From a virus, in the IMG/VR virus record IMGVR_UViG_3300017963_000792, positions 1 to 22,118 of that record: a stretch of DNA of 22,118 nucleotides; one strand, 5' to 3'. The position numbers and the translations under genes were made by a program. This document shows, piece by piece, positions 2,453-16,464 of the stretch. Each line of letters starts with the position of its first letter. Position 1 is the first letter of the stretch. The notes beneath the pieces were generated by a model. It searched no databases. It was not told where the DNA came from and saw only the letters and a program-made list of their open reading frames with translations.

Positions 2453-3049
2453 TTAGTTTTTGTTTTTGCCTGAAATACCTTCAATCAATAACCGTGCGTC
2501 CGCGCCGCCGGTAATTTCATTAATTACAAGTTCGCGTTCGCGCCGGGGAAGCGACAAAATAAATTCAAGCGTTTGTTGGCCGACGCCCCGGTTTACGATT
2601 ATGTCGATACCCGCCAAGCGCCGCGCCTTAAATAACCATGATTCCGATTCGAGCGCCGCGCGCTTTTCCGGGTCAAGGCGCGGAAATAACTCTTTTAGCT
2701 TTACCGCCGCCGATACAAAGCAAACCAGTTCGCGCCGCATTTCTGAAATTTGCACCTTATAGGCCGCGACCGCCCGACCCGCGTTAGCAAGCGCGATTTT
2801 ATGCCTTACTTTTTGCCGCTTTGTAAAACAGATAAACCGCCGCCAACGCAAGGCCGCAACTTCCAATTCGGCCAATTCTAAATTTTCCCCAAGGCCGATT
2901 AAATCACGATTGCGGTTGTCAATTTCGCGCAAGCATTGTTTATATTTGGCCCAATCGTCGCCTTGGCTTCGGATAATAAAATTTTCAATTTGGAATTCTG
3001 AATGAAATTGTTGGTAATCGACCAAAAGCCTTTTAATGTCGTTTTTCAT
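2453..3049 (-). CDS. Hypothetical alpha-helical protein, 198 aa
   Basis: The start is set at the ATG at 3049, which overlaps the TGA of the upstream 757-residue gene (ATGA), indicating translational coupling; a longer frame with a TTG at 3112 lacks a binding site and would overlap the neighbour by 67 bases. The protein is almost entirely helical and strongly charged, with leucine-rich heptad-like stretches (about residues 45-75) followed by a basic, aromatic patch (WRRFICFTKRQKVRHK, about residues 68-83) and a C-terminal part with RRERELVINEI. There is no signal peptide, and the hydrophobic stretches are too short or interrupted for clear membrane spans. I do not recognise the family. Its place between the peptidase/propeller protein and the secreted protein suggests a tail-tip accessory or assembly role, by position only. 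Confidence 0.7.
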   Translation of the reverse strand: MKNDIKRLLVDYQQFHSEFQIENFIIRSQGDDWAKYKQCLREIDNRNRDLIGLGENLELAELEVAALRWRRFICFTKRQKVRHKIALANAGRAVAAYKVQISEMRRELVCFVSAAVKLKELFPRLDPEKRAALESESWLFKARRLAGIDIIVNRGVGQQTLEFILSLPRRERELVINEITGGADARLLIEGISGKNKN

Positions 3050-5319
3050 TTTGAAGTACCCGCCCCAAATCTGCCGAAATTCCTGTTTGGCGTTTCCCCA
3101 ATTAAAAGCCAAGTGTCGGTATTTTGTTTATATTGTTGGTGTTGTTCATATACGCCCCAAGCCGGGTAATTTGTCGCCCAAACGTAAGCGTAATTGGATA
3201 CCCCCAAGCTTGGCCGCTTGCCGTTTGAATTGGCAAACCAAGATTGCTTGGACGTCCAAATATTCAAATCGGCATTGTATTCGTCAAGGCGGCTTGTATA
3301 TTCAACCGTGGTCCGTCCGCCGAAGGCGTAACCCTTATTGGACCCAATTGAAAAATTTGCCCCAAAGCCCGACCATGCGACGGCCCCCGAAGCTTTGGTT
3401 TGATAGCTGTTTGTTGTCGGGTCATAAGCTTTTAAAGTGTCAACAAAATTCGCCGGGTCGTATTCGTTCCAACTGTTAAGGTTTACCGGATTGCCGCCGA
3501 AAATATAAGCCAATTCGTTCAACGTCCAATAAGCCGTTCGCGCGCTTTTATACCCCGCCTTGCTTTCGTAGCTGTCGCTTATATCGTTATAGCGGTCATG
3601 TGTTGAATAGACTTCGCAAAGCGGTTCAATATTATTTTCTTGCCATTGGGTCCCGCCGATTAAATGGGTATGGCCATTGATATAAAACCCGGCCATATCT
3701 GACCGCTTTTCATTTGGAACCGCTTGCCGGTCGGTCCAAGAAAAAGCCGCTTTATCATAGCGATGGGCGTTATCGACTACTTCGTGAAAAGTGTTATATG
3801 GATAGGGTTGCGCAAGGCTTGCGGGCGGCTGAACCGTTCTGGCGGGCTTGCTTCCGCCGAAAACCCAATAGGACGATATTTGATTTGACGAATAGCCGAC
3901 ATATTCCCTTGACCAATAGCCGTCGTTTGGGTAACTAACCGGCAAAACGTATGCCAATTCTTGCCAAGAATCGGTATTGCCCTTGTATTGGTAATGGTTA
4001 GGCAACGCCGCCGCTTCAATCGGCGGGCCATAATCCAAAAGGCAATCGTGGTATCCAAAAAATATATAGTAGTCACGGAAGCAAGCCGCCGGGTTTGACC
4101 GAAAGCCGACGACCTTTGGTTGATTAAAATCTTGCCCTTCAAATTTGATAACGACTTCGTCGCCGTCGGTAAACGCGGTGGAATTACAAAATTGGTATTC
4201 AATGGGAACCGCCGTTAATTTCGTCGATACGGTTTGCCAATCTTGCCCTGCGCGCTGATAATCTAAAAAGCGATATGGAAGGCTTGACGCTTGCCGGACT
4301 TCGTCAAAACGATTATCTAAAATCAGCGTCCCCCGATTTACCGTTTGAATCATTAAAACCGCATGGTTGGCAACCGTCGTGCCTTCGACCGCAACAATTG
4401 CCATTTGTAAATTTTTTACCGGGTATCCCGCGTTAATTAGTTCTTGCATTTTGGTCAAGGCGAAGTCCTCGCAATCGCCCCTTTGCCCGGTGGTCATTAT
4501 GTCCCAATAGTCCCCGGCCCCGTACCCGCTTAAATCTGTTTCGTATTCATGCGCCGCGTTAACGTTTGCGTTGGTTTGTTTTATGGTTTCAAATTGCGCG
4601 TCTGAAATAAACGTTGGCGCGCCCGGTTCGGTATTGGTGCAAGTTGGGTGCGTCGGGTTGCGACTGCAAAAATCAGTAAATTGCGGCCAAACCGTCGGTT
4701 TGCAATCGCTAAAGGTCTGGCCCTGATTGACGGGAAGGTTTTGTTGACTGGAAAACTCCGGTTCTAGGCAAATATCGCAAGTGTCGTTTTCATAATCCAT
4801 AGAATCCGAAATTATAGTCCCATATCGGTAAATCGGATCAAACTTTTGCCAACCCGGCAACATACATTTATTTAAAAACGTCACCCAAGGCCCAAGACCC
4901 AACGACGGGGTTATTTGACCGTCGCGGGCTTGATTCCAAGCCGCGCCGCCGTTATAACCGGCGACAATGTTAACCTTTGACGGGCTTTCATATTCGCCCG
5001 GTATTTCCAAAATGCCGACGTCGCCGGTTAGTCCTTCGGTCCCGTCAATGGACCAAGTGTAAATGGTTGGGTCCGCCGGAAACTGACTATTTAAAATCGC
5101 AACGCGTCTTTCAAGGGCCGCGATTTGAAGGCCAACAATGTTTTTGTCAAATCTTTCTTCGGGCGTTGTTTCCGGCATGGCGTCATATTCGTTTTGAAGT
5201 TCCGCAATTTTTTCGTTTAGGACTTCAATGCGCGCTTCATTTTCGGCGCGGCCCCCATATTTCAATGTAATTTGGTAATAACCCTGTCCAAAATCTGATA
5301 TAACGGTTCCTTTTCCCAT
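3046..5319 (-). CDS. Tail protein with transglutaminase-like cysteine peptidase (C93-like) and Kelch propeller, 757 aa
   Basis: The ATG at 5319 has GAAGG seven bases upstream and lies four bases after the preceding stop. Domains, by eye: residues 1-25 a small beta segment (GTVISDFGQGYYQITLKY) of a type seen in phage tail hub proteins; 26-80 a coiled coil; 110-230 a linker with six cysteines (C152, C181, C184, C206, C218, C227); about 240-360 a bacterial transglutaminase-like cysteine peptidase domain with the hallmark GDCEDFA (C283), NHAVL (H319) and LILDNRFDEV (D335) forming the Cys-His-Asp triad; about 430-755 Kelch-like blades (YWVFGG, AYIFGG, GYAFGG, each followed by a Y-x-x-x-x-N-x-W/Y type segment). 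The peptidase may cleave cell-wall peptides or host surface protein during entry, filling the role that NlpC/P60 domains have in lambda-type tails; the propeller probably binds a surface ligand. Roles are inferred; the domain calls are fairly secure. Confidence 0.85.
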   Translation of the reverse strand: MGKGTVISDFGQGYYQITLKYGGRAENEARIEVLNEKIAELQNEYDAMPETTPEERFDKNIVGLQIAALERRVAILNSQFPADPTIYTWSIDGTEGLTGDVGILEIPGEYESPSKVNIVAGYNGGAAWNQARDGQITPSLGLGPWVTFLNKCMLPGWQKFDPIYRYGTIISDSMDYENDTCDICLEPEFSSQQNLPVNQGQTFSDCKPTVWPQFTDFCSRNPTHPTCTNTEPGAPTFISDAQFETIKQTNANVNAAHEYETDLSGYGAGDYWDIMTTGQRGDCEDFALTKMQELINAGYPVKNLQMAIVAVEGTTVANHAVLMIQTVNRGTLILDNRFDEVRQASSLPYRFLDYQRAGQDWQTVSTKLTAVPIEYQFCNSTAFTDGDEVVIKFEGQDFNQPKVVGFRSNPAACFRDYYIFFGYHDCLLDYGPPIEAAALPNHYQYKGNTDSWQELAYVLPVSYPNDGYWSREYVGYSSNQISSYWVFGGSKPARTVQPPASLAQPYPYNTFHEVVDNAHRYDKAAFSWTDRQAVPNEKRSDMAGFYINGHTHLIGGTQWQENNIEPLCEVYSTHDRYNDISDSYESKAGYKSARTAYWTLNELAYIFGGNPVNLNSWNEYDPANFVDTLKAYDPTTNSYQTKASGAVAWSGFGANFSIGSNKGYAFGGRTTVEYTSRLDEYNADLNIWTSKQSWFANSNGKRPSLGVSNYAYVWATNYPAWGVYEQHQQYKQNTDTWLLIGETPNRNFGRFGAGTSK

Positions 5320-7706: not shown

Positions 7707-10403
7707 TTAGCCCCCCAATAAAAACGCCGTGCCTTCGGCGTTGGCCTGTATTTGCGCGCGTTCAATTATCGACTGTAAAACAAGGTCAAGTTCCGGGTAA
7801 ACCCCCGACGATTCGATTGTTATCAGGCCGCCGCCTTGTTCAATCCTAGCCGTCCGGGCTTCGGTGTATGCGATTTCCGCCGCCGTCAATTCCCTTTGCA
7901 TGATTAATAATTCGTCGCGTCGTCGGCTTTCGGCTTCAAGTTCCTGTTGGATAACTAGCGCGGAATAGCCCGACGCATTGTTTAAGGCCCCGACTATTTC
8001 GCCGATAACGTCGCCGGTGTTGGCAAAGCTTTCGGAAACCATAGTTGCAACCGTTTCAAGCCGCGCGGCCCCGGCTTCGACTTCGGCAATATCAAGGCGG
8101 GCTTGCCATTCAAACGCGGTGCGCAAGGTTTCGGCTTGCGCTTCGATTTGGGCAATTTCAATTTCTGTTTCGTTTTGCATCCGGGCAATGGTAATGCGTT
8201 CGGAAGGCGTCGCGGCTTCAATTTCCCGTTGGGTTTCGTTCAAGTTATTTGGGTCGGTTCGGGTCCTAACCGGGATTGCGATTTCTTCGCCGTCAATGGT
8301 CGTGTATATCGTGTTCCAAGCGCGGTTTGCTTGTGCGGCAACGTCGTCGTCGTTGACCTCAATTTCAACCGCCTTGGTCGCCGGTATGCCGTCAATAATG
8401 AAATGGACCGTTTCACCGTCAATAGTAAATTGCCCCAAGTTGTCCCAAAAAACGTTAACCGGCGTTTGTTCCGGCAAATCGTCTATTTCTTCGCCCATTT
8501 CATGCAAGGCGACAATTGCCTTTCCCAATTCAACGTTGGCTTCGCCTTGGCGTTGTCTAAGTTCAATTGCCGCCGTATCATAACCAGAAAAGCTTAATAA
8601 GGTGCTGTCGACCGCTTCGCCAAACGATCTAAAAAGGGTTGAATTTTCCCGAAGCCAACCGCCAAAGCCTTCGTCCCCTTGAAGTGCCGCAAAAACCGCC
8701 GCCAATGCCGTCGCCGGTAAAATAATTGTCCCAAGCGCCGACGCAAGACCGCCCGCCCCGGACAACAACGGCAAAAGCCCCGGCAACCGGGTCAACGCCA
8801 ATAATCCGATTGCGCCCGAAAATATATTTAATGCGCCGGTAACGTTTGGGATTTGTTCCGCGATTAAATTTATCCCGGTGCCAAATCCCGCAATTTGTCC
8901 AATCGTTTCAAACGTCGACCCTTCCAACTCGTCCATTTGCCCGACAATGCGGGCAAAGCCTTCAAAAAAGGGACCAAGCCCGCCGACAATCCCCGACGTC
9001 GTGTTAATCAGGGCTTCAATTCCCGTAATGATCGCTTGTATAGCGCGCGCCAAGTCTTGGGGGTCGGTCAAATCAAGGTCGCCAAAAATATCTTCAAAGA
9101 CATTTCTGGCCGTGGTTCCAAGCGTATTAAACGCGGAAACGATACCGTCCCAATCAAGCGCGGCCAACGCTTCCGGCATGGCGGCGGCAATGGCCGACAA
9201 ATCAGCGGCCAACGCCTGACCGAAGTCTTGGACAAGGTCAAGGACCGGGTCAAATGAACCTTGGTCTATTCCAAGCGATACCCCTTGGAATACTTCGCCG
9301 ATTGCGCGCGCAATGTCGGCCCAATCGTCAAGCAACGGGGTTCCAACGTCAACTAATGTCGCCCGCAAATTGTTAATTAGTCTTTGGTTGGTTAGATTGA
9401 AATTGTCGGCCATTAATTCGTAAGCTTGCGCCGCCGCCCCGGCCCGGTCGGCCATTGCGGCCATTGCGTTAGCATAACCGCCCGAAGCGTCCCGGCCCAA
9501 AATAAGGGCCGCGTTTGCGCCTTCGATACGCGGTATCAATTGTCGCATTGCTTCAAGGTTTCCGCCGGTCGCTTCGTAAAGTTGCCTAAAAACGCCGTCA
9601 AGTCCGCGCGCGGCAACCGCCCCGGCCCCCAACTCGACCCCCATACTTTCGGCGGCGTCGCTTGCTGCCGACGTCGGCGCAAGTATAGCGACCAAGGCCG
9701 ACCGGATTTGCGTAACTGCTTGCGCCGTTGGCGCGCCCGCTGCGGTCAACCCGGCGACTGCCGACGATAAGTCGGCAAACGAAATGCCGCCCGACGCCGC
9801 AACGCCGGTCACATTCGCAAGGGTTGGTTCAAGTTCTTGCAAAGTTGTTTTGCCGGTTCTAACCGTCGTAAAAAGGACGTCCGCATAGTCGGCGGCTTCG
9901 TCGCTCGCCGCGCCAAAAGCGTTCATGGTCGGGCGTAAAACGTTAACCGCTTGGTTTAAGTCCGCTTTGGTTGCAATGGCAAGCCTTTCGGCTTCGGTAA
10001 TAAGCCCAAGTGAAGTTTCGTAACTTTCGCCCGATGAAATGGCGTTATAAATTGCGGAATTTATATCGTCAAAGGATTGGGTCGAATCCCGCGCATAATC
10101 AATAATATTTTGCCTGAATTGGTCGATTGATTGCGCCGGGGCGTCAATTAGGGTTGTTATTTCGTTGAAGCTGTCGCCGAATTGACCGGCGGCAATGGTC
10201 GCGGCGGTCAAGGCCCCCCCCGCGACAAGGGCAAGCGCGGCGTCGATTGCCAGAATTGACGCGGTAAAATCTGCCAATGGTTGCGTTGCGTCGGTAACGC
10301 TTGTCGAAAAAGAATCAAGCCCCCTTTGCGTCGAATTGATCGTTTGCGAAAGGTTGTCTTGGCCTTCAAAAATTATTTTGACTATTTTTTCAAGATCGGC
10401 CAT
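7707..10403 (-). CDS. Tail tape measure protein, TP901 type, 898 aa
   Basis: This is the longest gene in the window. It has the TP901-type tape measure pattern in its first 350 residues: VKIIFEGQDNLS at the start, a hydrophobic Ala-rich segment near 50-75, AGQFGDSFNEITTLID, NVLRPTMNAFG, LQELEPTLANVTGVAASGGI and TAAGAPTAQAVTQIRSAL. A second strongly hydrophobic region (about residues 525-570, LLALTRLPGLLPLLSGAGG onward) may insert in the host membrane during DNA ejection. The C-terminal third is charged and coiled-coil like (EIEIAQIEAQAETLRTAFEW). A long non-contractile tail is implied, since tape measure length sets tail length. AGGA lies ten bases before the ATG, after the frameshift extension of the chaperone gene. 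Confidence 0.93.
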   Translation of the reverse strand: MADLEKIVKIIFEGQDNLSQTINSTQRGLDSFSTSVTDATQPLADFTASILAIDAALALVAGGALTAATIAAGQFGDSFNEITTLIDAPAQSIDQFRQNIIDYARDSTQSFDDINSAIYNAISSGESYETSLGLITEAERLAIATKADLNQAVNVLRPTMNAFGAASDEAADYADVLFTTVRTGKTTLQELEPTLANVTGVAASGGISFADLSSAVAGLTAAGAPTAQAVTQIRSALVAILAPTSAASDAAESMGVELGAGAVAARGLDGVFRQLYEATGGNLEAMRQLIPRIEGANAALILGRDASGGYANAMAAMADRAGAAAQAYELMADNFNLTNQRLINNLRATLVDVGTPLLDDWADIARAIGEVFQGVSLGIDQGSFDPVLDLVQDFGQALAADLSAIAAAMPEALAALDWDGIVSAFNTLGTTARNVFEDIFGDLDLTDPQDLARAIQAIITGIEALINTTSGIVGGLGPFFEGFARIVGQMDELEGSTFETIGQIAGFGTGINLIAEQIPNVTGALNIFSGAIGLLALTRLPGLLPLLSGAGGLASALGTIILPATALAAVFAALQGDEGFGGWLRENSTLFRSFGEAVDSTLLSFSGYDTAAIELRQRQGEANVELGKAIVALHEMGEEIDDLPEQTPVNVFWDNLGQFTIDGETVHFIIDGIPATKAVEIEVNDDDVAAQANRAWNTIYTTIDGEEIAIPVRTRTDPNNLNETQREIEAATPSERITIARMQNETEIEIAQIEAQAETLRTAFEWQARLDIAEVEAGAARLETVATMVSESFANTGDVIGEIVGALNNASGYSALVIQQELEAESRRRDELLIMQRELTAAEIAYTEARTARIEQGGGLITIESSGVYPELDLVLQSIIERAQIQANAEGTAFLLGG

Positions 10404-10434: not shown

Positions 10435-11036
10435 TTATTTTTGGTTTCTTGCTTCAAAAAAGCGGCCCCAAAGTATAAGTTCCGTTTTTACTAAACGCCC
10501 ATGCGGGAAAATGTCCGGCCTTACTTCAAATAAAAACCGCCCTTTGGCATGGCAAAGGCTTAAAGCGACTTGGATTTCTTCGCTTTGCCAAAGGGCTTCG
10601 ATTTTCCCGGCGACGCCATACCTTGGCCGCTTAAAATCAAAATCCGATTTGTTAGGGTCAAAAAAACCGTCGGAAACGCCTTATTAAGACGCGCGGCTAG
10701 GTCTTCGTCGCAAACGGGGTTGACGCTTCCGGCTACCAAATGCGCAATCCGCTTCGCGGTCGATTCCGGTATTTCTTCGCCGTGGCCGACCATTTTTGAA
10801 ATTGCGTCCTTGACCTCGCCCGCGCGCATAGTCAAAAGCCCTTCTAAAATTGCGGTTGAAATTGACCGTTTGCCCGCGACTTCGTCGGCCTTGGCAAACT
10901 CGACCCCCGTCAACCCCCTAACCTCCCAGACAAGCTCGTCGCCTTCGTCAAACCAATCTTTTAATTCCGGGACGGGGACTGCCATTGTTCGCGGTTCGAA
11001 ATGCGTTGCTAAAAATTGTCCCTTATCAAATGCCAT
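10435..11036 (-). CDS. Tail assembly chaperone G-T fusion made by -1 ribosomal frameshift, about 200 aa
   Basis: The upstream 158-residue frame contains G GGA AAA in phase (mRNA sense, plus-strand 10608-10602), a close match to the lambda G/T slippery heptamer G GGA AAG. Slipping back one base after residue K145 opens a frame of 55 further codons (beginning IEALWQSEEIQ, ending FFEARNQK) that stops at TAA, 10437-10435. This frame has no start codon of its own and fills almost the whole gap before the tape measure gene. A stable stem-loop starts five bases after the heptamer. In lambda the G-T product binds the tape measure protein and recruits tail tube subunits; gene order here is the same. 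The extension is short compared with typical T domains. The frame is read directly; use in vivo is inferred. Confidence 0.75.
10539..10608 (-). promoter_or_regulatory. Programmed -1 frameshift element: slippery heptamer plus stem-loop
   Basis: In mRNA sense the heptamer GGGAAAA (plus-strand 10608-10602) is followed after five bases by GCCCTTTGGCA (10596-10586), which pairs perfectly over 11 bases with TGCCAAAGGGC (10549-10539). Inside the loop, AAGCGA immediately next to the outer arm can pair with TCGCTT further on, giving a stacked inner stem. Spacing and stem strength are those expected of a frameshift stimulator. Confidence 0.78.
10560..11036 (-). CDS. Tail assembly chaperone, gpG-like, 158 aa
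   Basis: This is the unshifted product. The ATG at 11036 has AGGGGG four bases upstream. It lies between the major tail protein and the tape measure gene, the conserved position of tail assembly chaperones. The N-terminal half has the mixed alpha/beta character of this group (MAVPVPELKDWFD, ELVWEVRGLTGVEFAKADE), followed by helices (AILEGLLTMRAGEVKDAISK) and a TAKRIAHLVAGSVNPVC segment. The C-terminus is a basic tail (GKSKPFGKAKKSKSL) that is replaced when the ribosome shifts frame. It should coat the tape measure protein during tail assembly and be absent from the mature virion. Homology is inferred from position and the frameshift signal rather than from a strong motif. Confidence 0.82.
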   Translation of the reverse strand: MAFDKGQFLATHFEPRTMAVPVPELKDWFDEGDELVWEVRGLTGVEFAKADEVAGKRSISTAILEGLLTMRAGEVKDAISKMVGHGEEIPESTAKRIAHLVAGSVNPVCDEDLAARLNKAFPTVFLTLTNRILILSGQGMASPGKSKPFGKAKKSKSL

Positions 11037-11057: not shown

Positions 11058-12077
11058 TTAGCCGAAAACCCGGACCGCTTCGGTTTCGGCGGCAATGGCG
11101 CAAGTCGCGTTGACGTTGGCCCCGGCGGGAAATGATACCGGCGCGCCAAGGTAACCTTGACATAATATAAACGGGTCGTTTAGCCGGTCTTGAAAAAACT
11201 TAAACCAAATAAACTCGTCGGCAAACCTTAAAAGGTTGTCGGTTATACCGTCTTTTAACTCGACGCTAAAGGCCCCGGCGTTTAGGGTTTGGCTTGCGGA
11301 CCCTTTGACCCGACCGTAAACTTGGGTCGTGTTGATTGTATGAGAATTGGCCGGGGGCGAAAAGTCGTAGGCGTCAACAATTTCGACAAAGCTTGGGACG
11401 TAATATTGCGCATAAACGTCTTTGCCGTAAACGGTCGAGCCGGCGTCTTCGGAATGAATCGCGGGTAAAGCCGAATGAAAAGTTATTCCGGCATATCCCA
11501 AAACCCCGTTTGAAACGCTCGCGTATTGGATTTCCCAACCGGGCAAGTCGTAACGTTCTTGGTGAACATTTTCGACTTGTTTTATTTCGTCGGTTGTAAT
11601 GACCGCCGGGGTTTGGGACGAAACGCGGATTTGGCCGATTTCTATTGCATCATTATCAATATAAGGCGGTCCGCCATTAGCCCCGCGCGTTTCGCTAAAA
11701 GCGGTCCCTTCCGCACCGTCGACAATGGCAAAGGCCCCCAATGCGGTTACGGTTACCGAAAAAATTTGGTAATCGCTCACCGCCGGGCGTGTAATGGCTT
11801 GGTCGACGGCGGCGGAAACTGTCGTTTCAACCCCGGCGATATAAACCTTACATTCTGAAATGTCGACTTGGTCGTTGGCCCCGCCCGCTTCCGGCGTGAT
11901 AACGCCGCCGGATTTAACGCCGTTGGGCTTAATATCCGGGGCCTTGCCCGACCGGCCCGACCAAATTTGCGCCGCGCTTTTAAATTCCTGTTTGTCGCCT
12001 TGGTCGGTTAGTTCGAGAAAGGCGGTCAAAACTTGGTCGGCTTCATACATTAATTTTGCGTTTCCTGAATTTGACAT
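11058..12077 (-). CDS. Major tail (tube) protein, lambda gpV-like role, 339 aa
   Basis: I place the start at the ATG at 12077 because GGAGG, the best canonical binding site in the window, lies seven bases upstream; an upstream in-frame codon at 12149 lacks one and would overlap the neighbour. The protein is beta-rich and acidic with many Gly, Ser and Thr residues, no signal peptide and no cysteine-rich region. Its position between the tail terminator and the G/G-T chaperone is that of the tail tube protein in lambda-type phages. The N-terminal part (residues 1-180, including a VDISECKVYIAGVETTVSAA strand set) could be an extra domain relative to a minimal tube protein. The call rests mainly on gene order and size, not on a diagnostic motif. 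Confidence 0.72.
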   Translation of the reverse strand: MSNSGNAKLMYEADQVLTAFLELTDQGDKQEFKSAAQIWSGRSGKAPDIKPNGVKSGGVITPEAGGANDQVDISECKVYIAGVETTVSAAVDQAITRPAVSDYQIFSVTVTALGAFAIVDGAEGTAFSETRGANGGPPYIDNDAIEIGQIRVSSQTPAVITTDEIKQVENVHQERYDLPGWEIQYASVSNGVLGYAGITFHSALPAIHSEDAGSTVYGKDVYAQYYVPSFVEIVDAYDFSPPANSHTINTTQVYGRVKGSASQTLNAGAFSVELKDGITDNLLRFADEFIWFKFFQDRLNDPFILCQGYLGAPVSFPAGANVNATCAIAAETEAVRVFG

Positions 12078-12096
12078 TTTTATACCTCCAATTTTA

Positions 12097-12882
12097 TTAG
12101 TTGGTTTGACTGTACGGGTTGCCCGCAACCCGTTTATATTCAACCCCAAAAACGATATTGACGCCGGTTGAAAGCTGTCCTTGCGTCGGAAATTCCGGCT
12201 TCGCGCTTAAAACGTCAATCGCGTCAATCAAGGGACCGCCGGGCGTTTTCAACGCGCTTCGGGCCGACGCGGCCCCGTCAACCGTTGCGACGTCGTCATT
12301 GCTTCCAATGTCAAGTGGTTCGTCGTCGATAAAATCGCCGGTAACCCGGCGAAGTGTAAGCGTCCCGGCGGCATCTTGGTCGGCCCAAGCCCCGGACGTA
12401 ACCGAAACCCCGGCGATATATCCGGTCGCCTTGGACGTTTGACCAATGATATATTTGCCAACCGTGGCTTTAAATATCCCGCCCGAATCAAAGCCAAGGG
12501 ACCAAACCGGCCCTTGGATTGCTTCGACAATATCGGCGTAAATCAATTCGGCCATTGGCCCCGGTGCAATGGTCCCATGTTTTTCAACGCCTTGGACCTG
12601 TATTTGTAAATCAAATTTTGAGTGATTGCCGTAAATATTAATATTTTCTTCGACAAGCGGCATAAACCCAACCGCCGGTAAATATTCAAAATCAATGGGC
12701 GGCAAAAAGGACCGGAAAACTTCAACCCCAAGGTCAAGGTTGAAACCGTTTTTGACCCTGATTGTTTCAAGCCTTAAACCCCAATTGATAAAAATCCTTT
12801 CGCGAATCGGCAAAAAATCGCCGACAAATTCAAGGTCGGTCGCGGCGGATTCTCTAAGGGCTATTTGTTCGAAGGTTTCCAT
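12097..12882 (-). CDS. Tail terminator-like protein (gpU position) with inserted beta domain, 261 aa
   Basis: Residues 25-125 fit the tail terminator fold type: helix, then FINWGLRLETIRVKNGFNLD, EVFRSFLPPIDFEYLPAVGF, FDLQIQVQGVEKHG and PMAELIYADIVEAI. The matching end of the domain (GPLIDAIDVLSAKPEFP..., VNIVFGVEYKRVAGNPYSQ) appears only after residue 215. Between them, about residues 136-207, lies a Gly/Asp-rich insert (GKYIIGQTSKATGYIAGVSV, GTLTLRRVTGDFIDDEPLDI, DVATVDG) that resembles a small beta repeat found in unrelated phage surface proteins. The protein should cap the finished tail tube and join it to the head. It lies three bases after the stop of minor tail protein Z with no good binding site, so coupling is likely. 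The role is inferred from fold pattern and position. Confidence 0.72.
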   Translation of the reverse strand: METFEQIALRESAATDLEFVGDFLPIRERIFINWGLRLETIRVKNGFNLDLGVEVFRSFLPPIDFEYLPAVGFMPLVEENINIYGNHSKFDLQIQVQGVEKHGTIAPGPMAELIYADIVEAIQGPVWSLGFDSGGIFKATVGKYIIGQTSKATGYIAGVSVTSGAWADQDAAGTLTLRRVTGDFIDDEPLDIGSNDDVATVDGAASARSALKTPGGPLIDAIDVLSAKPEFPTQGQLSTGVNIVFGVEYKRVAGNPYSQTN

Positions 12883-14382: not shown

Positions 14383-16464
14383 TTAATTGCCGTCGTTAAA
14401 ATATAGGGCTTTCCAGTCAACGGCCTTGGCCCCGCATTCAATCCGCACCTTGTATTCCGTCCCGTCAACCGACCATCCTTGGCGTTGTTCAAGGTAGGGG
14501 GTTTGAACCCCGTTTAAGAAAAAGGCAACGACGGTCTTGCCCTTTGGCCCGGCCCCGTACCATGCCGCCGCGTCGTCGTCGTCAAGGCGCGGTTCATATA
14601 CGCGGGTAAAATAGTTCCCGACATAAATATTTTTGCGGGTAGCGGCAAGCGACGAATCGGTTGCAATGGTATCCGAATCGGCAAACTGGATGGTTTGAAA
14701 AAAGACCTCCGCCGCGCCTTCCAAGGCAACCGGCATAATAACAAACTTGGGTTGAATGTTAAGCCGCCGCAAACCCTGTAAATCCTTTTGGACCTTCATT
14801 GCGCGAATCATTTCGGCAATGGTCGCTTGGCCGGGGGGAGCGCCGGAACCGTTATCAACAAAATTGCCGTGGTCGGCATGAAACAAGGCGGTCCCGTCGC
14901 CCATTGCGGCGTTGGCCGTCAATACCGCATAAACGACGTCGGCAACCTTGCGGTTGGCCGCTTCGCCGTGCATGGCCGGAATGCGGGTCAAAGCGCCAAG
15001 GTCGTCGTTTATAATCGTTTCGCGGGTTATGGCGAAAAGCTTGCCGTATTTGGCAATCGAATATTGTTCTTGGGCTTCGGTAATTTTCCCGTAACGGTAT
15101 TCGCCGCTTTCCGGGATTTCTTCCAAGTCTGAAATTTCGCTTGCGCGCGGCATCGAATGCGTTTTAAAGTCGCTGACTTGATCGGTTGCAACCCATGTCC
15201 GCCAAGTTTCTGACGCCGTATCCCAACCTGAAAAAAGGGCTTTGTTGGCGACGTTTGCCAGTATATAAGGCAAGTCCCCGGTCGACAAGGCCCGCCCGAC
15301 CATTTCCATAACATTGCCGCCGGTCGGAAGCCCGGCGACCCGCAAGGATTCGCGGGCAAGTTCGCGCAACGAAAACCCTATTAGGTCGGCGCTTCCCGCC
15401 GCCGGTTTTTCGATTTTCTCAACGTCGCCGCGCATCAAAAGCGAATCGGTCGCCGCCGCGCGGAATTTGTCTTGCGCGTCTTCAGTAACGGTCGCCGGTT
15501 TATAATGCGAAAAATCGTCTTCGCGTTGCTTGTCAAGGAAGTCGACAAAAGCCCGGTAAGCTTCGTCGATTGTTTTTTCTTCGACAATCAGACTTTCGGC
15601 CAACTTGACGTTGTCAAAGCGCTTGCCCAAGGCGTCAATTTCTCTTATTCGGGTTAGTTCTTCGCCCTTGGCTTCGGCCCGGATTTTATCAAGATCGACC
15701 TTGGGCGCGTCGTCCTTGGGCGGTTCGTCCTTTTTGGGCGCGCCTTCGGCCCGGACGTCAAGGGTTTCTAAAAAGGCCCATGCTTCGGCTTCGGTCGCGT
15801 CTTCGGCAAGGCCGCGTTTAATTAAAAATTCTCGTAATTTCTTGTTCATGTTTTGACCCCCTTCGGGTTTTAATTTATTGTTTGTGTTCGCGGACCGGGC
15901 TTTTGCAAGTTCGTCGGCCCCAATTGGAACAATGGACCCTTCCCGGATTCGCCAACGTTTGGTAACCCTGACCGGACCCGCAAAGCTGCGCCCCTTAAAT
16001 TCATAGCTTTCGCCTTCGGGGACCCATTGGCTGTCGATTGGTCGGTAACCGGCTGAAAAATCCGTCAAGTGTCCTTCCCTTACTTTTTGCCAAATGCTGT
16101 CAACGTCGGCAACGCCGGAAAAATGCGCGCGGCCAACCAAAACGTCGCCGTCTTTTTTAAGGCCGCGTATCGACCCGACGACGTTGGCGGTATCAAACCG
16201 CCTATGGGTATCTAAAAGCGGGACTTGCCGGGACCCCGGCATTTCGACCCCGTCAATTAGCAAAATTTCCTTTACAATTTCGTATCGGTCGAAGTCAAAG
16301 ACTTCAACGGGTTGTTCGCTTGCAATAACCGCTTCAACGCTTCGTTCGTCTTCGTTGACGCTATCCGGCCCGGTCGCTCTAAGGGCGAAACTTCGATAAC
16401 TTAACTTGTCGGCCCCGTTGGTTTCGGACCGCTTCATTAGCTTTTTAATCGTGCGTTTTTTCAT
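14383..16464 (-). CDS. Prohead protease / major capsid protein fusion, 693 aa
   Basis: The ATG at 16464 has AAAGGA eight bases upstream. Residues about 22-190 are a prohead (HK97 U35/S78-like) maturation protease: LLDTHRRFD with H87, VVGSIRGL, and HLTDFSAGY with S137, followed by EGSIVPIGAD. Residues about 206-330 are helical, charged and Lys/Asp-rich (APKKDEPPKDDAPK), as expected of a scaffold or delta domain. Residues about 335-693 are the capsid shell part, with GTALFHADHGNF, IRAMKVQKDLQG, and a C-terminus resembling Mu gpT-like/HK97-fold subunits. Such fusions are a known family (prohead protease/major capsid protein fusion). The scaffold would be removed by self-cleavage during maturation. 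A strong ribosome binding site inside the gene (before codon 206) suggests a second, protease-free product. Confidence 0.92.
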   Translation of the reverse strand: MKKRTIKKLMKRSETNGADKLSYRSFALRATGPDSVNEDERSVEAVIASEQPVEVFDFDRYEIVKEILLIDGVEMPGSRQVPLLDTHRRFDTANVVGSIRGLKKDGDVLVGRAHFSGVADVDSIWQKVREGHLTDFSAGYRPIDSQWVPEGESYEFKGRSFAGPVRVTKRWRIREGSIVPIGADELAKARSANTNNKLKPEGGQNMNKKLREFLIKRGLAEDATEAEAWAFLETLDVRAEGAPKKDEPPKDDAPKVDLDKIRAEAKGEELTRIREIDALGKRFDNVKLAESLIVEEKTIDEAYRAFVDFLDKQREDDFSHYKPATVTEDAQDKFRAAATDSLLMRGDVEKIEKPAAGSADLIGFSLRELARESLRVAGLPTGGNVMEMVGRALSTGDLPYILANVANKALFSGWDTASETWRTWVATDQVSDFKTHSMPRASEISDLEEIPESGEYRYGKITEAQEQYSIAKYGKLFAITRETIINDDLGALTRIPAMHGEAANRKVADVVYAVLTANAAMGDGTALFHADHGNFVDNGSGAPPGQATIAEMIRAMKVQKDLQGLRRLNIQPKFVIMPVALEGAAEVFFQTIQFADSDTIATDSSLAATRKNIYVGNYFTRVYEPRLDDDDAAAWYGAGPKGKTVVAFFLNGVQTPYLEQRQGWSVDGTEYKVRIECGAKAVDWKALYFNDGN
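15847..15861 (-). promoter_or_regulatory. Internal ribosome binding site and start codon within the protease/capsid fusion
   Basis: GGGGG (plus-strand 15857-15861) lies seven bases before an in-frame ATG (15849-15847, codon 206, MNKKLREFL...). It has the same form and spacing as the start sites of about nine other genes here. Use of it would give a 488-residue scaffold-capsid protein without protease, similar in logic to the nested C/Nu3 genes of lambda. Confidence 0.65.

Follow-up and report, generated by a model that had tools for sequence, protein, structure and literature searches.

The 3' end of a short gene in the tail region of this virus raises the question of whether one gene there yields two proteins by a programmed -1 ribosomal frameshift, and whether a hairpin lying directly after the candidate slip site takes part in it. 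The window analysed is a whole 22,118-base virus record, a metagenomic fragment without a cultured host, and its tail genes lie on the minus strand. In phage lambda, where the slip motif is GGGAAAG, the ratio of G to GT matters for tail assembly, and we know of no need for a structural stimulator (hairpin) at the lambda shift site. Low-level -1 shifting in lambda yields a G-T fusion which links the tape measure and the tube subunit (PMC5009743; Levin 1993 and Xu 2004, 2013 and 2014, as cited therein). The original prediction had read the locus in the window as encoding a lambda-type G-T tail chaperone. From the comparison of sequences given below, we consider it very probable that a programmed -1 ribosomal frameshift of the lambda G/GT type operates here, with the hairpin as its likely stimulator. 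The features concerned are collected in Table 1.

Table 1. Features at and around the predicted frameshift site, in coordinates of the window.
Feature	Position	Strand	Basis and remarks
Gene directly upstream of G	11058..12149	-	phrog_30644, 1.5e-83; family of unknown function
Gene G, zero-frame product	10560..11036	-	158-aa predicted tail assembly chaperone; ORF, predicted fold and position
-1 slippery heptamer, G GGA AAA	10602..10608	-	In phase with G (ccg gga aaa tcg); sequence
5-nt spacer (tcgaa), heptamer to hairpin	10597..10601	-	Sequence
5' arm of 11-bp stem, GCCCTTTGGCA	10586..10596	-	Folding and covariation
36-nt loop	10550..10585	-	Inner helix of the minimum free energy (MFE) structure, 10583-10578 with 10557-10552
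3' arm of 11-bp stem, TGCCAAAGGGC	10539..10549	-	Folding and covariation
T extension, -1 frame	10435..10602	-	55 codons, IEALWQ...ARNQK, then TAA (10437-10435); conserved in relatives
Tail tape measure gene	7707..10403	-	phrog_991, 4.9e-48; PF10145, 5.9e-26; ATG at 10403

Gene G (11036-10560) is placed between the phrog_30644 gene upstream and the tape measure gene downstream, and its 3' end reads ...ASPGKSKPFGKAKKSKSL. Going by gene order only, the upstream gene may encode the major tail tube protein, for which this is the expected place. Neither G nor T of the window matched a known family in Pfam, PHROGs or NCBIfam, and a PDB sequence search with a G profile returned zero matches; fold comparison alone worked. 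The structure of G used for this is an AlphaFold model built from 67 relatives (pLDDT 84.7). Its two best, and only convincing, PDB matches were YqbN (3klu; probability 1.00, E-value 0.02) and the HK97 tail assembly chaperone (2ob9; probability 0.96, E-value 0.16). The predicted fold of G thus resembles those of HK97 gp13 (2ob9) and the YqbN/XkdN-like TACs (3klu, Phage_TAC_5, phrog_389), but there is no significant sequence match to these proteins and the whole-chain TM-scores are moderate, at 0.41-0.63. Among 68 relatives of G, five weakly matched Phage_TAC_5 and eight weakly matched phrog_389 (XkdN-like). Together, the predicted fold and the gene order identify G as a putative tail assembly chaperone.

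The sequence at the end of G bears out what was originally predicted from it: the heptamer is in phase with G, exactly 5 nt separate it from the hairpin, and the -1 frame continues past the slip site through to its TAA, with the tape measure gene next. This frame is without stops from 10680 on and contains no ATG, GTG or TTG throughout, and its TAA falls shortly before the tape measure ATG. The predicted G-T fusion is about 200 aa long.

The stem formed by GCCCTTTGGCA and TGCCAAAGGGC is a perfect 11 bp, as had been described, and every outer pair has an ensemble probability of at least 0.97. The MFE structure reaches -28.0 kcal/mol and places a helix of GCGAAG with CTTTGC inside the loop, which receives no independent support in the two-dimensional covariation map described below. 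A fold of 121 nt gave z = -2.76, and one of 200 shuffles was as stable. The inner stem proposed originally, AAGCGA/TCGCTT, does exist as a possible pairing but is not the optimal one, as its -24.9 kcal/mol falls short of the MFE structure by 3.1 kcal/mol; the covariation map does not single it out, and we do not retain it as a separate conserved element. A second suggestion, that the loop could pair alternatively as GGCAAAG/CTTTGCC, fails, as this pairing reaches -16.7 against -28.0 kcal/mol and has an ensemble probability of 0.00. A pseudoknot or switch as the stimulator is likewise not supported, since that pairing is 11 kcal/mol weaker and the covariation map highlights no second helix. Rfam yielded one sub-threshold chance match only, on the other strand.

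In the mechanism that we propose, most ribosomes would complete gpG (158 aa). At G GGA AAA a minority would slip back by one base, as tRNA-Gly re-pairs to GGG and tRNA-Lys to AAA. The 11-bp hairpin would obstruct the ribosome during the slip, and the shifted ribosomes would read on in the T frame to give the gpG-T fusion. By analogy with lambda, gpG would coat the tape measure protein and the T tail would recruit the tail tube subunit. We infer that shifting occurs, as well as its efficiency, its stimulation by the stem and the roles of gpG and gpG-T. In E. coli, G_GGA_AAG-type heptamers belong to the most efficient ones, and a hairpin that acts as stimulator starts 4-10 nt downstream of the motif (PMC4066793); the hairpin start in the window fits this rule.

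A search with the G sequence alone retrieved two viral loci and two phage records. Searches with G and T profiles yielded far more: 242 T-bearing loci, from which 80 were kept, 71 loci bearing G and six in bacterial genomes; the bacterial genome contigs had given no matches in a single-sequence scan. Wherever both parts scored (161 loci, some of them records that overlap on one contig), T is encoded in the -1 frame relative to G, and in no case in frame 0 or +1. Counting distinct T peptides leaves 120 loci, all of which carry a candidate shift site when standard and looser motifs are taken together. Relatives with a broken heptamer or -1 frame, named originally as what would speak against a frameshift, were thus looked for and not found in these sets. 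The junction is GGGAAAR or A6R (GGGAAAA, GGGAAAG, AAAAAAA or AAAAAAG) at 82 of the 120 loci, against 0.09 expected from the rate of these heptamers elsewhere in G. The other 38 have weaker, nonstandard motifs (NGTAAAG, TGCAAAG, GGAAAAG, GGGGGAR and GGGGGGG), and because these were chosen by a looser pattern, the shift site there is a presumed one. In most loci the slip site stands exactly 72 nt before an F-x-F-x-x-R-P motif, and T is conserved as a protein (GRFLFEVRPD.FPEG). Marinobacter phage PS3 and Caudoviricetes ctUtU524 both carry homologous G and T in the -1 phase, annotated as hypothetical proteins only.

Covariation of the stem in related phages, which had been put forward as a check, was found among the relatives with GGGAAAR sites. 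At 69 such loci, aligned without gaps, the two arms of a locus pair with a mean of -19.2 kcal/mol, versus -14.5 kcal/mol when arms are swapped with those of relatives less than 75% identical, and none of 5000 permutations fell below -16.7. As kinship might inflate this test, it was repeated at successive positions over 320 nt: own and swapped arms differed by -4.1 directly after the heptamer (0 nt) and by -3.8 at a distance of 6 nt, and at all other positions the difference stayed within -1.1. A two-dimensional map of 325 window pairs placed the helix of positions 6-21 with 48-63 among its top cells. Synonymous recoding of T weakens the stems, with a mean z of -2.1. For the window itself, comparison of its own arms with recodings drawn from family codon usage gave z = -3.1 (1%); when codon usage was controlled column by column the gap was smaller, and the arms of the window still beat 200 of 200 recodings. 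Counting in a fixed register was modestly positive, with 65.9% of cells paired versus 61.3% in shuffled data, and with a covariation of 0.142 versus 0.097 (0 of 500 shuffles). RNAalifold found no consensus structure on the fixed-register alignment, which we attribute to subclades using shifted registers of the stem, as in the pairing of GCGCTCTG with CAGAGCGC read from the alignment. A covariance model of the hairpin hit five bacterial genomes once each, all of them already known to carry the locus. These comparisons indicate that at GGGAAAR sites the hairpin is under selection beyond what coding imposes.

The stem is not uniform across the family. On a tree of G, and with a threshold for strong stems set by hand at -17 kcal/mol, 54 of 74 GGGAAAR loci have strong stems and 20 have weak ones, as against none of the eight A7 loci (L068, L059, L089, L090, L096, L019, L125 and L070). 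One of these, L070, has its A7 site and weak hairpin while nested among GGGAAAR relatives on the tree. The eight A7 sites with weak hairpins suggest a trade-off of slipperiness against hairpin. The TGTAAAG clade of ctUtU524 has strong stems, from -23 to -28, and no advantage of own arms was seen in the PS3-type GGTAAAG group (17 loci) or the GGGGGAR group (10 loci). A supported clade of PS3 (L005) and 15 similar loci has a G GTA AAG site, whose P-site codon is poor at re-pairing in the -1 frame, and a covarying stem was not found there at the usual place. At a further set of loci (L119, L126, L102, L105, L120, L121, L123, L139 and L145), GGGGGAA or GGGGGAG stands directly before the stop codon of G, mostly with weak stems. 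Two of these, L119 and L126, have a T frame that opens just 10 nt ahead of the G stop, so that any shift must use GGG GAA, a sequence outside the standard slippery sites. It is conceivable, and we hold it only tentatively, that the family has an RNA element tuned to its slip site, with a covarying wide-loop hairpin beside GGGAAAR, a weak one beside the very slippery A7 and, elsewhere, its replacement by a noncanonical GGG GAA(stop), which would keep the G:GT ratio constant. The pattern of sites and stems is post hoc, with a hand-chosen threshold, small clustered groups and a poorly resolved tree, and is therefore a lead and not a result.

The weakness of the stem at A7, at most GGGGGAR and at PS3-type GGTAAAG sites means that it is not essential to the arrangement, and here the strongest rival explanation enters, namely that the frameshift is real and the hairpin is not its stimulator. 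The hairpin would then be a by-product of coding conserved T residues (ALW ... RGR), or would serve mRNA stability or translation of the tape measure gene. Both arms do encode conserved T residues, ALW is also retained in clades which lack the stem, and such clades keep the -1 arrangement. Against coding alone stands the recoding comparison, in which own arms outpair synonymous versions of the same protein; they also outpair the arms of relatives at the position of the hairpin only, and the hairpin starts at the distance from the slip site at which stimulators occur. We regard a non-stimulating hairpin as unlikely.

Much less probable still is that T is a separate short protein, made by re-initiation or coupled translation at the G stop. 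Such a reading would suit ctUtU524, in which a T-frame start is annotated as a gene of its own, and the sizeable minority of relatives in which the zero-frame stop abuts the slip site. Against it, the T frame of the window has no start codon of any kind, 62 of the 120 loci have none before the motif, the ALW directly after the slip is conserved in the protein, and the -1 phase is kept without exception. Expression of T by transcriptional slippage is more improbable again: a few relatives do have A9 runs at the junction on which RNA polymerase could slip, but the window and most relatives have only three or four consecutive A, and GGGAAAR is a classic ribosomal site (PMC4066793, PMC5009743). 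A degenerate gene, or a sequencing error in a once continuous one, has no observation in its favour and can practically be dismissed, given that the same -1 arrangement recurs at all 161 loci, from independent assemblies, with no in-frame fusion among them.

The preferred reading, a ribosomal -1 frameshift with a likely stimulatory hairpin, shares with lambda G/GT the GGGAAAR-type motif, a shift towards the 3' end of G, a place directly ahead of the tape measure gene, and the two predicted products G and G-T. It differs from lambda in that no sequence similarity is detectable with Pfam, PHROGs or NCBIfam, that the T extension is only about 55-60 aa long, and that its site is followed by a covarying hairpin. 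Hairpins do have a precedent at phage shift sites: an earlier survey predicted them in three of five phage clusters and judged them relevant in one (PMC4066793). The signal is also like those of the IS911/dnaX type, in which the heptamer is followed 4-10 nt on by a stable, possibly branched hairpin (PMC4066793), but it belongs to a different gene, has a wide loop of 36 nt and lacks a conserved upstream SD-like stimulator (one was seen at 22 of the 74 GGGAAAR loci). The two annotated phages in turn differ from the window, both having nonstandard sites: GGTAAAG without a stem in PS3, and TGTAAAG with a strong stem in ctUtU524. As no entry of Pfam, PHROGs or NCBIfam covers the family at usable scores, the fused protein was missed in the annotation of both. 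New here are the chaperone family, its missing annotation and the comparative evidence for selection on the stem, the mechanism being of the known lambda G/GT type. With their gapless geometry and covarying hairpin, these loci form a good natural series in which to measure how the G:GT ratio depends on slip site and RNA structure.

Some minor observations concern the window itself. The slip site plus one base, GGGAAAAT (10601-10608), is perfectly complementary to ATTTTCCC (10505-10512), which lies about 90 nt downstream within the T frame and holds the codons for IFP; there are five such complementary 8-mers in the window versus 3.2 expected, so this match is likely due to chance. On the same strand, a 757-aa protein of the tail region (3046-5319) has a Peptidase_C93 transglutaminase-like cysteine proteinase domain at residues 213-365 (E-value 1.6e-30), followed by what appear by eye to be Kelch-type repeats. 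The major capsid protein (14383-16464, minus strand) is apparently fused to its own maturation protease (phrog_4523, PF25209).
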